Assembly (NCBI RefSeq): GCF_030817075.1 | Contig: NZ_JAUSYU010000001.1 | Coordinates: forward strand, 1,798,001-1,862,000 | Length of the DNA stretch: 64,000 nt | Direction of reading: 5' to 3' | From: Arthrobacter sp. V1I9 | GTDB taxonomy: Bacteria > Actinomycetota > Actinomycetes > Actinomycetales > Micrococcaceae | Part shown: positions 31,222 through 60,164 of the stretch, piece after piece | Layout: each line of letters begins with the position of its first letter | Position numbering within the stretch: the stretch's first letter is position 1 | Position numbers and translations under genes: made by a program | Notes under the pieces: model-generated | The model's database searches: none | The model's input: only the letters and a program-made list of their open reading frames with translations | What the model was told of the DNA's origin: nothing

Positions 31222-33637
31222 TTAGCGGCAGTCCCCGTGGGTTTCGATGGTGCCTGCGTTGCCGTCTACTGTTACCAGTTGGCCTGTTCTAAGGACTTGG
31301 GTGGCGGTGCCTGTTCCTACTACTGCCGGGATGCCGTATTCGCGGGCTACCAGGGAGGCGTGGGCTGCCAGGTTGCCTCCGTCCGTGACCACCGCTGCCG
31401 CCTGGGCGAACAGCGGAGTCCAGGCTGGTGCTGTTGCCCTGGTCACCAGGACCTCGCCCGGTTGGAACTGTGCAAAGTCCCCGGGGCCTTCGACGATGCG
31501 GACCCGGCCCCTGGCCCGGCCGGGGCTTGCGGGGTGGCCCACCAGCGCGCCGTGGGGAAGATTGGCTGTGCTGCGGGCCGTGTTGGCCACCCGGTCGAAG
31601 GTGTTGCCGAACATCGGAAGCCCGCCAAGCACCAGCGGCGCGGCCAGTTTCCGTTGGCGAAGCCAGTCCTGCCGGCGTCCAGCTACATTGTCCTGCTGCG
31701 GCGGCGCGTCGAGCCGAAGATCCTGTTTTGTCAGGAAGTAGACGTCGTCCGGGCTGTTGATGATGCCCGCCTGTTCCAGCTGCTTCCCAATTTCGGCGGC
31801 GCAACGGCGAAGCAGCGGCCAGCCCAGGGTAAAGTCCCGCACCTGTTCCTCCCGGAGCAGGGCATAGTGCTGGGCAACCGCAAGTAAACGGTCGAACCGG
31901 CGCAGCCGGCGGGAGTCCTCGAGGATCGAGCGGCAAGCCTCCTCCGCTGCCCGCCGTCGATTGGCCGCGGCAGCAGCGGCGGCGGCACTCCGGAAGTCAC
32001 CAGCGGACGGGACCGCAGGGCCTGGCTCTTCGCCCGCCGTAGGGTGGTACCAGTCGAGGCTGTAGACGGCGTGGTCGACTCTGGCCGGCAACGCCGGGGC
32101 AAGGCCGCCGAGCAGCACCTGGTAGCCGCCGCCGTCGTACAGTCCCTGCTCCTGCCGGGTGGCTAAGGCGGGAGCAAGGTGCCTGCGCCAGAATCTGGCC
32201 AGGACCAGCTCCATTTTCCAGGCCGCCCCGCCCGTGGCGGCGAAGAACCAGAGATACTGTCCGGCCGCGCGCGCCACTTGTCCAATGAGGTCCATCCGCC
32301 CGGCCAGGGTTGGCGGCAGCGGGACACCCTTGTAACTGTCCACCAGCCTGCGGTAGGCAGGGAGGCGTTGGCTGCGCCATTCCAGCTCAAGGTCCCGCAG
32401 GACGGCGCGGTCTGCACCGGCAGGGTCGATCATGGGGCGGACCACCGAGGTGAAGAAATAGGGCAACGAGCGCGGCGCGCCGCCAAAAACCAGGTGGGGG
32501 AGGGGCCCGGGGTGTTGGCGGGGCCACGTAGTACCAGCCATTCACTGTGGCATTGCCCATGGGAACCCGAAGGCCCGTCGAGCGGAAAACGGCATCGTTG
32601 TAGGCGGCATCCATGCAGGAAATGATCCAGTCCATAAAGAGCGGTGTAACAGGTTCCGGCAGCCATTCACCGAGCCGGAAGTTCCGAAGCCAGGCGCCCT
32701 TTCCCGGGGCCCGCCACACCGCCGGTTCCGGAACGGCTGTCATCGGACGCGCCTGCAGGACCTGGACACGCCCGGAACGGTCCATCGCCCACTCCACGTC
32801 CTGCGGGCAGCCGAAGTGCCGGGCGACGCTGCCTGCCAAGGCGGCGGCCGCCGTCGCGCTTTGCCTCGTCAGCACAGATCCTGGCGGCGCGGCAGCAGCA
32901 CCACTCCTGCGGCTGACCCGTCCACTCCGCGCCAACCACTCCTCGCCGCGCTCCCGCCCTCCCACCAGACTTTCCCCGAGCCCCTTCACAGCGGAAATCA
33001 CCGTCTCGTCCCGGGCTCCGGTCAAGGGATTCGCGGTGAAGGCAACGCCGGCAGCCGCGGCGTCCACCATCTGCTGCACGAGGACCGCCATGGTCCCGAC
33101 GCCGGCGGGAGCTGCGTCGCCAGCGTCCGGCAGGGCGTCCGGATCGGCGTGTAGTACAACATTTGCGTGGTCGGCCGGCCGCAGGCGGAGGGATTCTTGG
33201 TAGGCCCGGACACGGCCGGCGTCAGCCGAACCGAAACAGCGGATGATGGCTGACGGAAGGTCTCCGCCCGGCACGTCCAGGTAACTTTCATACATCCCGG
33301 CGTAGGAGGCACCGGGCAGGTCTTCGGCCGCGGCCGAGGAGCGGACCGCGTACGGCCCGGGGCCGGCCATGAGGGCGGCGGCCTGCAGCTGGCGGTCCCA
33401 CGCATCCTGGTTGTCTTCCGACCGGGCGTCAAAAGCCGCGCGTGTGACGACGAAGCCGGGAGGAACGGGAAACCCTGCGGATTTCAGTTCGGACAGGGCT
33501 GCGGCTTTGCTGCCGGCCTCCTCCCGCGTCAGGGGAAGAGGTCCGCCCAGGCGCGGAAAAAGGGCGCCTCCAGAGGGGCCGGCACTGAAAGCAGCACCGG
33601 CGTCATCGCCCAACTCATCACCAGAGTCATTGCCCAA
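31222..33637 (-). pseudogene. PEP-utilising enzyme, rifampicin phosphotransferase-like, frameshifted
   Basis: The upstream frame (33637 to about 32500) holds the ATP-grasp domain: AVRSSAAAEDLPGASYAGMYES, LVQQMVDAAAAGVAFTANP, VQVLQARPMT, then LPEPVTPLFMDW. The downstream frame (about 32510 to 31222) ends in the phosphohistidine domain with TDGGNLAAHASLVAREYGIP, keeping the catalytic His, and VTVDGNAGTIE. The frames join at a C5 run near 32496-32503; removing one C gives APPHLVFGGAP. The total of 2416 nt is one more than a multiple of three, for about 804 aa. The domain order ATP-grasp, middle, His matches rifampicin phosphotransferases rather than classical PEP synthase. The start is a TTG behind AGGTGG. 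No rifamycin-associated element is seen upstream. Confidence 0.8.
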
Positions 33638-33741: not shown

Positions 33742-33747
33742 TAAAGT
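33742..33747 (+). promoter_or_regulatory. -10 hexamer of the leuS transcript
   Basis: TAAAGT matches TAnnnT. Transcription would begin about 12 nt after its first base, which is exactly the A of the leader ATG at 33754, so the leader peptide message is predicted to be leaderless. The -35 region is weak. Confidence 0.55.
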
Positions 33748-33753
33748 GGTTGC

Positions 33754-33780
33754 ATGCGTGCGATCCTTCTGCTTAGTTAG
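33754..33780 (+). CDS. Leucine leader peptide of leuS (8 aa)
   Basis: ATG at 33754 opens an 8-codon frame, MRAILLLS, ending at TAG 33778-33780. Three consecutive leucine codons (CTT CTG CTT) follow an Ile codon. CTT is a poor codon in this genome, whose genes use mainly CTG and CTC. It lies about 150 nt before leuS and directly ahead of a two-hairpin region. The sequence resembles the leader before leuA in this same window (RA-x-LLL-S), with the start codons aligned. I infer ribosome-mediated control of leuS by leucine supply; peptide synthesis itself is not shown by the sequence. Confidence 0.72.
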
Positions 33781-33838
33781 CCGCCCGGCATCCGAAACAA
33801 CGGATAACCGTGCGGCAGCCCCTCCATGGAGAGGGGCT
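33780..33838 (+). terminator. Attenuator hairpins upstream of leuS
   Basis: The first stem combines GCCGC (33780-33784) with GCGGC (33812-33816) and, inside it, ATCCG (33790-33794) with CGGAT (33801-33805). Directly after it AGCCCCTC (33817-33824) and GAGGGGCT (33831-33838) form a perfect 8-bp terminator stem with a 6-nt loop, followed by TTTTGTGTG. The first hairpin begins at the last base of the leader stop codon, where a translating ribosome would melt it. I found no strong alternative anti-terminator pairing. Confidence 0.7.
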
Positions 33839-33929
33839 TTTGTGTGTCCGGGCTTGTTTCCGGGCCGCGGCAGGAGGATCAGGCCGTTATGGCAGCACAG
33901 ATGCCGTAACAGAACAGAAGAGGGCAGCA

Positions 33930-36455
33930 GTGGGCGTTCAGCCGGAGACAGAGACCGGAACAGCAGCAGTGTCGGCGGAGGTGCCCGAGGAGGGTACGTA
34001 CAGTTTTGCCGCAATGGAGGCCAAATGGCCGCAGGTGTGGGAAGACCTCAAGGTCTTCACCCCTGTCGACGACGGGTCCCGGGAGCGGCGTTACGTGCTG
34101 GACATGTTCCCCTACCCGTCCGGGGACCTGCACATGGGGCACGCCGAAGCGTTTGCCATGGGTGACGTCGTGGCCCGTTACCTTCGCCAGCAGGGCTACG
34201 ACGTCCTGCACCCGATCGGCTGGGACTCCTTCGGCCTGCCCGCCGAGAACGCCGCCATCAAGCGCAACGCCCATCCCAGTGAGTGGACCTACGCCAACAT
34301 TGACACGCAGGCCGCGTCCTTCAAGCGCTACGCCATCTCCGCTGACTGGTCCCGCCGGCTGCACACCTCGGACCCCGAGTACTACCGCTGGACCCAGTGG
34401 CTGTTCAAGCGCTTTTACGAGCGCGGCCTGGCGTACCGCAAGGATTCACCGGTCAACTGGTGCCCCAAGGACCAGACCGTGCTGGCAAACGAGCAGGTTG
34501 TCAACGGCGCCTGCGAACGCTGCGGCACCACCGTCACCAAGAAGTCCCTGAACCAGTGGTACTTCAAGATCACCGAGTACGCTGACCGGCTGCTCGATGA
34601 CATGGATGAGCTGCGGGGCCACTGGCCCGAGCGGGTGCTGGCAATGCAGAAGAACTGGATCGGCCGTTCCGAGGGTGCGCACGTCAACTTCGTGATCGAA
34701 GGCGACGGCGGCAAGCCTGCCAAGGACGTCACGGTCTTCACCACCCGTCCCGACACCCTGTACGGCGCAACTTTCTTTGTCGTTGCCGCGGACGCGCCGC
34801 TCGCCGTCGAACTGGTTACGCATGAACACGCGGCTGCCCTGGACGAATACCGTGAGCAGGTCAAAGCGCTCACCGAAATCGAACGCCAGTCCACGGAACG
34901 GGAGAAGACGGGCGTCTTCACCGGCCGTTACGCCGTCAACCCGCTGAACGGGGAGAAGCTGCCTGTGTGGGCAGCTGACTACGTCCTGGCCGACTACGGC
35001 ACGGGGGCCATCATGGCCGTGCCCGCCCACGACCAGCGCGACCTCGACTTCGCGCGGAAGTTCGGCCTCCCGGTACGTGCCGTCCTGAACACCGGCGAGG
35101 AAGACCCCGCAGTGTCCGGCACGGCCACCGCGGGGGAGGGCACGCTGATCAACTCCGGGGACCTGGACGGACTGCCCAAGGCTGAGGCCATCCCGGCCGC
35201 GATCGCCATCCTGGAACGCCAGGGCACCGGAGAGAAGTTCGTGAACTTCCGGCTGCGCGACTGGCTGCTCAGCCGCCAGCGGTTCTGGGGCACCCCCATC
35301 CCGATCATCCACTGCCCGTCCTGCGGCGAGGTTCCCGTGCCTGATGAGCAGCTGCCCGTCACCCTGCCGGCAGACCTCCGCGGCGAGGACCTGTCGCCGA
35401 AGGGGACGTCCCCGCTGGCTGCCGCAGAGGCCTGGGTCAATGTTGAATGCCCCAACTGCCACGGACCGGCCAAGCGCGACACCGACACCATGGACACCTT
35501 TGTGGACTCGTCCTGGTACTTCCTGCGTTTCGTCTCCCCGGAGTTCACGGAGGGTCCCTTCGACCCGGCGAAAATTAACGACTGGATGCCGGTAGGCCAG
35601 TATGTGGGCGGTGTGGAGCATGCCATCCTGCACCTGCTCTACGCCCGCTTCTTCACCAAGGTCATCCACGACCTGGGCATGATCGACGCCGACGAGCCGT
35701 TCAGCGCCCTGCTCAACCAGGGCCAGGTCCTTAACGGCGGCAAAGCCATGAGCAAGTCCCTGGGCAACGGCGTTGACCTCGGCGAGCAGCTGGACAGGTA
35801 CGGCGTGGATGCCGTCCGGCTCACCATGATCTTCGCGTCGCCTCCCGAAGACGACGTCGACTGGGCCGATGTTTCGCCGTCGGGCTCCGCGAAGTTCCTG
35901 GCCCGCGCGTGGCGGCTGGCGCAGGATGTCACCAGCGAACCCTCTGTTGACCCCGCATCCGGGGACCGCACGCTGCGCTCGGTCACGCACCGCACCATCG
36001 CGGACGCCGCGGCGCTGCTGGACAACAACAAGTTCAACGTGGTGGTGGCCAAGCTGATGGAGTTGGTCAACGCGACCCGAAAGACCATAGATGCCGGTGC
36101 CGGCGGGTCTGATCCCGCGGTACGGGAAGCTGCCGAGGCGGTTGCCGTCATCCTCAGCCTCTTCGCGCCTTACACCGCGGAGGATATGTGGAACGTCCTG
36201 GGCCACCCGGCCTCGGTGGCGAACGCCGGCTGGCCGGCCCACGACGCGGCCCTGCTGGTACAGGACACCGTCACCGCGGTGGTTCAGGTCCAGGGCAAGG
36301 TCCGGGACAGGCTTGAGGTCTCGCCCGACGTCTCCGAGGACCAGTTGCGCGAACTGGCGCTGGCCTCGGACAACGTCCAGCGCGCCCTCGACGGCCGCGG
36401 CATCCGCACCGTGATCGTCCGCGCCCCTAAACTGGTCAACATCGTCCCGGCATAG
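33930..36455 (+). CDS. leuS: Leucyl-tRNA synthetase
   Basis: Class I synthetase charging tRNA-Leu, 841 aa from GTG 33930, which follows AGAGGGCAGCA. The frame is open upstream to 33810, but those 40 residues overlap the attenuator and carry no family sequence. The HIGH motif appears as HMGH at residues 68-71 in [15 protein letters not shown], and KMSKS as MSKS at 607-610. The CP1 editing domain has [14 protein letters not shown]. Paired cysteines in [10 protein letters not shown] and [10 protein letters not shown] suggest a zinc-binding insertion. Expression is probably controlled by the leader peptide and terminator upstream. Confidence 0.96.
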
Positions 36456-60107: not shown

Positions 60108-60136
60108 GTGCGTGCAGAGCTTCTTCTTCTTAGCTG

Positions 60137-60164
<28 letters not shown>
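60108..60164 (+). CDS. Leucine leader peptide of leuA (18 aa)
   Basis: GTG at 60108 opens MRAELLLLSCRGEASDAI, ending at TAG 60162-60164. Four consecutive CTT leucine codons (60120-60131) stand out in a genome that prefers CTG and CTC. An ATG one codon upstream (60105) is also in frame, but GTG aligns with the ATG of the leuS leader and sits at the predicted transcription start. Leucine-dependent attenuation of leuA is expected in actinobacteria. The downstream hairpin begins 5 nt after the Leu codons, where a stalled ribosome would mask it. Confidence 0.8.

Follow-up and report, generated by a model that had tools for sequence, protein, structure and literature searches.

A conserved leucine leader peptide with two hairpins upstream of leuS in Arthrobacter sp. 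V1I9, a probable ribosome-mediated attenuator

The leuS gene of Arthrobacter sp. V1I9 lies downstream of a short leader frame with a run of leucine codons and two successive hairpins, an element that is real, conserved and very probably functional (Table 1). Its best explanation, which we hold with high confidence, is ribosome-mediated transcription attenuation that responds to the leucyl-tRNA supply, with leader and hairpins probably switching leuS on when leucine runs short. Elements of this kind are already known from the leuS leaders of Streptomyces. What is new here is the fixed distance to the first hairpin (P1), the preference for CTT, the abutment of P1 on the terminator hairpin (T) without conserved overlap, the position of the TAG stop, and the occurrence of isoleucine and valine versions. 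Positions are those of the window, the whole stretch of 64,000 nucleotides that was analysed.

Table 1. Parts of the leuS leader region in the window
Feature	Position	Strand	Basis
-10 hexamer TAAAGT, putative leaderless promoter	33742..33747	+	sequence reading; spacing conserved
Leader MRAILLLS and stop	33754..33780	+	same-genus conservation; putative transcript start at A33754
Control codons CTT CTG CTT	33766..33774	+	Leu run of leader MRAILLLS
Hairpin P1, likely antiterminator	33780..33816	+	GCCGC/GCGGC, CGG/CCG, ATCCG/CGGAT; dG -19.5 kcal/mol
Intrinsic terminator T	33817..33841	+	8-bp stem AGCCCCTC/GAGGGGCT, then TTTT; dG -15.0 kcal/mol
leuS, leucine--tRNA ligase, GTG start	33930..36455	+	TIGR00396 E 1.7e-291, 969 bits (cut-off 548)

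The sequence-only reading that drew attention to this region had described a frame with three tandem leucine codons, a distance of 12 nt from the first base of TAAAGT to the ATG at 33754, and a stop-adjacent hairpin followed by a perfect 8-bp stem with TTTT; all of these were found again at the same coordinates. P1 starts within the leader stop codon TAG (33778-33780), 5 nt past the last leucine codon, and adjoins T with zero gap. The arms of T (33817-33824 and 33831-33838) pair perfectly around a six-base loop, and the first T of the TTTT tract (33838-33841) still belongs to the stem. Folding of 33780-33845 gave a z-score of -5.07. The long ORF upstream of the leader (32387-33637) is on the opposite strand, so T does not obviously terminate a plus-strand gene lying upstream.

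Two further stretches were observed between the terminator and leuS. Just past the T stem, 33838-33850 reads TTTTGTGTGTCC, which the majority of leaders in the window's family share with hardly any change. On the plus strand at 33889-33909, a short frame, MAAQMP and stop, stands behind GCAGGAGG, and its start (ATGGCAGCACAG) was found again in several same-genus loci.

Conservation of the leader was assessed in 153 fetched leuS loci. A strict scan for peptide and -10 element required TAnnnT 4-8 nt before ATG, GTG or TTG, together with leucine codons that were adjacent or separated by a single I, L, V or M. It detected a leader in 103 of the 153 loci and none in 46, while four had no leuS anchor. 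Reading of 36 loci, mostly scan misses, revealed extra leaders whose leucine runs are broken, such as MHTRLPLN, MFALSLS, MSALELSQPR and MSAVLRLS, and also loci without a leader. Within the genus, MRAILLLS or a close variant was present in 44/44 loci, these being the best 44 LeuS matches of the 85 genomes searched.

Most counts below refer to 99 leaders, obtained from the 103 by dropping L140 and L141, in which the script found no P1, and L084 and L134, which were weak or misparsed. Among them, 91 start with ATG and eight with GTG, and the stop codon is TAG in 80, TGA in 18 and TAA in one. The -10 element lies 6 nt from the start codon in 87/99 and 7 nt in 12/99, where the scan had demanded 4-8 nt, and is exactly TAAAGT in 54/99.

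A covariance model covering both hairpins (R1) was built from 30 leaders, the window leader not among them. In the window's own genome (4.05 Mb, single contig), the leuS leader was the only significant match, at E 8.9e-14, with the next best at E 4.05. At E 7.5e-5 or better, R1 matched 63/100 and 47/53 leuS loci, that is 110/153, including 80/123 outside the training set; the other 43/153 gave no match at this threshold. Of 31 genera sampled from the window's family, 18 matched and 13 did not (a 32nd genus was not fetched). A class-wide search at 1e-3 matched 106/246 genomes and 49/103 genera. Among the 30 class-wide matches listed, 29 are followed on the same strand by the LeuS N-terminal motif, and for the remaining one the contig ends too soon. 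Loss of the leucine codons and stem in close relatives had been named beforehand as an observation that would speak against attenuation; instead, the parts of the leader are retained within the genus and also well outside it.

Both hairpins are supported by covariation. Alignment A1 comprised 30 leaders picked for a short P1 loop and began at the leucine codons. In it, 91.2% of cells were paired (92.2% for P1 and 90.0% for T), with changes on both sides at 10/17 pairs, and 0/500 shuffles reached any of five measures. Sliding the partner by 1-3 columns lowered pairing to 42-55%. The outermost T pair forms in just 10/30 A1 leaders. Unaided, RNAalifold recovered nine P1 pairs and four core T pairs from A1. 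Compensating P1 variants include GCCACAC/GTGTGGC, GCTGTGCC/GGCACAGC and GCCGTACGGG/CCCGTACGGC. P1 was found at its expected place in 96/99 distinct leader segments, compared with 389/19,800 mononucleotide shuffles. The bare pattern GCCGC..GCGGC..CCCCT is not above chance in the genome (12 matches versus 24 in a reversed control), and significance is therefore limited to the whole element only.

The geometry of these parts is strikingly regular. P1 was searched for at offsets of 0-15 nt from the last leucine codon, and among 101 leaders with P1 the distance was 5 nt in 86 and 4 nt in 12, with one leader each at 3, 6 and 7 nt. Among 55 distinct arm pairs in the 5-nt register, 54 form the first P1 pair and all 55 form pairs 2-5. 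Of the 99 leaders, 85 have 2 nt from P1 to the CCC of T, 11 have 3 nt, two have 1 nt and one has 4 nt. The inner loop of P1 is variable, from 3 to 48 nt, and the peptide ahead of the leucine run varies too. The last leucine codon is CTT in 92 of the 99 leaders, CTA in four and CTC in three, preceded mostly by CTG (57) or CTC (24). In a crude set of 29 ORFs from the window, CTT accounts for 250/1437 leucine codons (17.4%), with 3/68 in leuS itself, which makes it a minority codon, not a rare one. P1 is missing in L055 and L114, from another genus, where a leader with a single leucine codon, MAYFLG, runs directly into a terminator; these loci may offer a natural test of the role of P1.

As expected of a ribosome-mediated attenuator, conserved leucine codons lie in a short leader ORF before leuS, and a covarying predicted intrinsic terminator stands between the leader and the gene. 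Under the proposed attenuation, transcription would begin at the A of the ATG at 33754 and the ribosome would load on the 5' end. When charged tRNA-Leu is scarce, the ribosome would wait with a leucine codon in its A site. With the last leucine codon in the A site, P1 starts 8 nt beyond the first base of that codon, and its first base is the 12th from the first P-site base. The 12th base from the start of the P site is where the ribosome's mRNA helicase works. This position relative to the A site implies that P1 can persist for as long as the ribosome is held at a leucine codon, whichever of them it is, and is melted once the ribosome moves to the stop codon. At the last leucine codon, the first base of P1 would lie just beyond the mRNA entrance, allowing P1 to form. 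The lowest pairs of T must presumably close deep in the RNA exit channel of RNA polymerase, and a stable P1 flush with the 5' foot of T should block this closure, giving read-through into leuS. When leucine is plentiful, a ribosome at the stop codon would cover and melt the 5' arm of P1, T would close and transcription would stop.

P1 is thus placed to respond to stalling, yet has no conserved base-pair overlap with T. Extension of P1 across the boundary is impossible in 77/89 distinct leaders, and reaches 1 bp in five and 2 bp in seven. A search of A1 with RNAalifold found no further conserved helix from the leucine codons to the terminator in its 30 leaders, and an antiterminator with strands common to P1 and T was rejected, since neither RNAalifold nor the count of boundary extensions showed a conserved one. 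The sequence-only reading had seen no obvious anti-terminator pairing. That holds in so far as no shared strand is conserved, but P1 itself is likely the antiterminator. A physiologically sensible direction of control demands that P1 oppose T, and as no base is regularly common to the two, exclusion by abutment is favoured. In free RNA, P1 and T both have a pair probability of at least 0.5 in 95/99 leaders. They can therefore coexist there, and the proposed mechanism has to assume that a steric or kinetic effect within RNA polymerase makes them mutually exclusive.

A classical overlap attenuator, in which the 3' arm of P1 is the strand common to T and abutment itself has no effect, is a less likely arrangement, although it deserves some weight. 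Here, the G-rich 3' arm of a melted P1 would pair with the U-rich tract and lengthen T, which would be shorter and weaker whenever P1 is formed. When the window leader was folded without the 5' arm of P1, GCGG did pair with UUGU below T. Similarly, the antiterminator and terminator hairpins of the Corynebacterium glutamicum ilvBNC leader, where mutants support three hairpins, are reported to be adjacent and to have a GCC in common (PMC11857589), whereas the leuS leaders have no conserved shared boundary. Pairing of the G-rich arm with the U-rich tail is also no commoner in real leaders (63/90) than with shuffled tails (1338/1800), so that a T lengthened by the freed P1 arm, while possible, was set aside.

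P1 might alternatively serve chiefly to pause transcription, keeping RNA polymerase in the terminator loop until a ribosome has caught up, with the switch set by another structure. A TG step at such a distance from the hairpin is a feature of the hairpin pauses of the his and trp leaders. In the leuS leaders, a TG step lies mostly 10-12 nt past P1 (65/122 TG steps, counted over offsets 1-22 of 74 distinct segments and without a control). Nevertheless, RNAalifold finds no other conserved helix between the leucine codons and the terminator, and a pause alone would not raise leuS under leucine shortage, making this account rather improbable. P1 may pause RNA polymerase in the terminator loop in addition to acting as antiterminator.

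The same layout recurs before other genes of branched-chain amino acid synthesis. From the R1 matches, 20 places chosen as second sites, weak or doubtful were examined. Sixteen of them precede other branched-chain genes (10 cimA, four ilvB and two ilvA; L196-L210 and L212), three precede leuS, and one is on a contig that ends too soon. At least 10 of the 106 R1-positive genomes match solely at non-leuS genes. Gene identity was checked through NCBIfam for one each of cimA, ilvB and ilvA (TIGR00977, E 9.9e-120; NF005860, E 6e-190; NF005600, E 2e-66), these being matches of partial frames below the curated cut-offs, and the remaining genes were assigned by similar protein starts.

In these leaders, the control codons follow the gene. 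Those before cimA (citramalate synthase) carry isoleucine codons, as in MQRTAIIIP and MLHHGIIIN, two with valine among the isoleucines. The four before ilvB (acetolactate synthase) carry isoleucine, leucine and valine codons, as in MHRILVVSEHVV and similar peptides, and the two before ilvA (threonine dehydratase) carry isoleucine codons and end in MAIT. A script that allowed P1 only at 4 or 5 nt and stepped back through isoleucine, leucine and valine codons found it behind the expected last such codon in 14/16 non-leuS leaders, this codon being ATT, GTT or CTT except for ATC in L210. In L201 the script took a neighbouring codon and in L208 it found no P1; by eye, both look like the rest. The amino acid of the control codons therefore tracks the gene while the RNA layout stays constant, as ribosome-mediated attenuation predicts.

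The genome of the window also has such a leader before ilvB (L216, contig position 1454868). It encodes MTFVTVGTVVVLIQRVAH and stop, and by eye a GCGCGTG/CACGCGC stem lies 5 nt after CTT and abuts a AACCCCTC...GAGGGGTT terminator; R1 did not list this leader at E 10 or less. A mixed alignment of leuS, cimA, ilvB and ilvA leaders (A2) failed to bring the P1 arms into register and therefore yielded no model and no conclusion.

The correspondence between codons and genes also bears on whether the element is regulated at all. Leader and T could merely set a constant low level of leuS, the leucine codons being incidental, and it has been told that altering the presumed control codons of the Streptomyces coelicolor ilvB leader had no effect (PMC1262725). 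However, the leucine codons are retained while the rest of the peptide changes, and isoleucine or valine codons occupy their place before cimA, ilvA and ilvB, which renders an unregulated leader very unlikely. Control of leuS by a T-box or riboswitch can be considered in view of the T-boxes predicted before ileS in several Actinobacteria (PMC1262725), but is hardly credible here, as the window has no Rfam match at gathering score. At the same score, none was found in 20 other leuS loci missed by the strict scan, two of which (L137 and L138) were later matched by R1.

Comparison with more distant loci suggests, from their common register, that one ancestral leader lies behind the forms in the window's family and those resembling Streptomyces. 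Six loci of one genus (L096, L098, L099, L102, L106 and L111), taken as Streptomyces from the peptide MRAVRLLLS[ERG]PR, have a TGA stop and P1 in the same position as in the window; P1 abuts T in five of them and is 3 nt away from it in L096. R1 detects the window leader and all six of these loci, none of which was used to train it. Tails in other families include LTGPR, LPEPR, LTWPR, LNEPRR and IRPR, and in ...PR-tailed leaders the codons NNG-CCG-CG are the 5' arm of P1. Where the Streptomyces-like leaders have GAG, CGG or GGG, most leaders of the window's family read TAG-CCG-C, which ends the peptide right where P1 begins and keeps it from running through the 5' arm. In seven same-genus leaders (L003, L006, L007, L008, L015, L043 and L050), CAG or AAG replaces this TAG, and the frame continues across the 5' arm of P1, ending at a second stop close to its 3' arm.

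Control of leuS by a leader peptide had been taken, in the sequence-only reading, to be less familiar in actinobacteria, and this must be corrected. In 2005, Seliverstov and colleagues predicted attenuators with antiterminator and terminator for the leuS genes of S. coelicolor and S. avermitilis (PMC1262725), and the leuS leader LeuL2 of S. lividans, MRAVRLLLSEPR, is reported to be leaderless and to have a hairpin and a U stretch downstream (PMC8079986). Its attenuation reading is thus borne out in part: leucine codons, stop-adjacent hairpin and terminator are conserved, but attenuation of leuS, including a leaderless case, had already been published. The window leader resembles LeuL2 in its gene, in a leucine-rich peptide starting MRA and in a hairpin and U-stretch terminator, and the leucine run and P1-T layout before leuS are also present in the window. 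LeuL2 is leaderless according to the published account, and the window leader is putatively so, from the spacing of its -10 element. A search of open-licence PMC literature, mostly at title level, turned up neither a cimA leader nor any leuS leader beyond Streptomyces.

Other known systems share some of these features. The C. glutamicum ilvBNC leader, which is also reported to be leaderless, and the ilvB-II motif described in PMC10272879 have branched-chain control codons, with antiterminator and terminator side by side, and an anti-antiterminator that extends into the leader has been proposed there (PMC11857589, PMC10272879). The LEU element before leuA likewise has a leader peptide with a leucine run, but differs in having a pseudoknot and leucine codons that pair with a Shine-Dalgarno box, and leuA leader mutants of S. 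coelicolor are described as inconsistent with classical attenuation (PMC1262725). The window has a leuA leader of the LEU-element type, putatively leaderless from its -10 element, at 60108-60164 on the plus strand, with a GTG start, the peptide MRAELLLLSCRGEASDAI and stop, and a TACTCT -10 element six bases upstream of the GTG. In the trp-type attenuators of Proteobacteria, the position of the ribosome chooses between two RNA structures. The leuS leader is unlike these in having no overlapping helices in the part examined and, if its transcript is leaderless, no room ahead of the start codon.

Taken across the class, these observations could describe an Actinomycetes attenuator whose antiterminator has no bases in common with T: a ribosome halted with the final control codon (CTT, ATT or GTT in most cases) in its A site would let P1, 5 nt on and with its foot against T, sterically block T inside RNA polymerase, in a module reused with leucine, isoleucine or valine codons before leuS, cimA, ilvB and ilvA. 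This combined description is offered tentatively and has somewhat less than even chances of holding in full.

The leuS leader of Streptomyces is suggested to belong to an old and widespread design, and the R1 covariance model can be used to find more such leaders. An explanation is offered for the ...PR tail of the Streptomyces-like peptides, which is encoded by the 5' arm of P1, and for the TAG stop in most leaders of the window's family, with whose G P1 begins. Should P1 indeed act by abutment, attenuation would need no overlapping helices.
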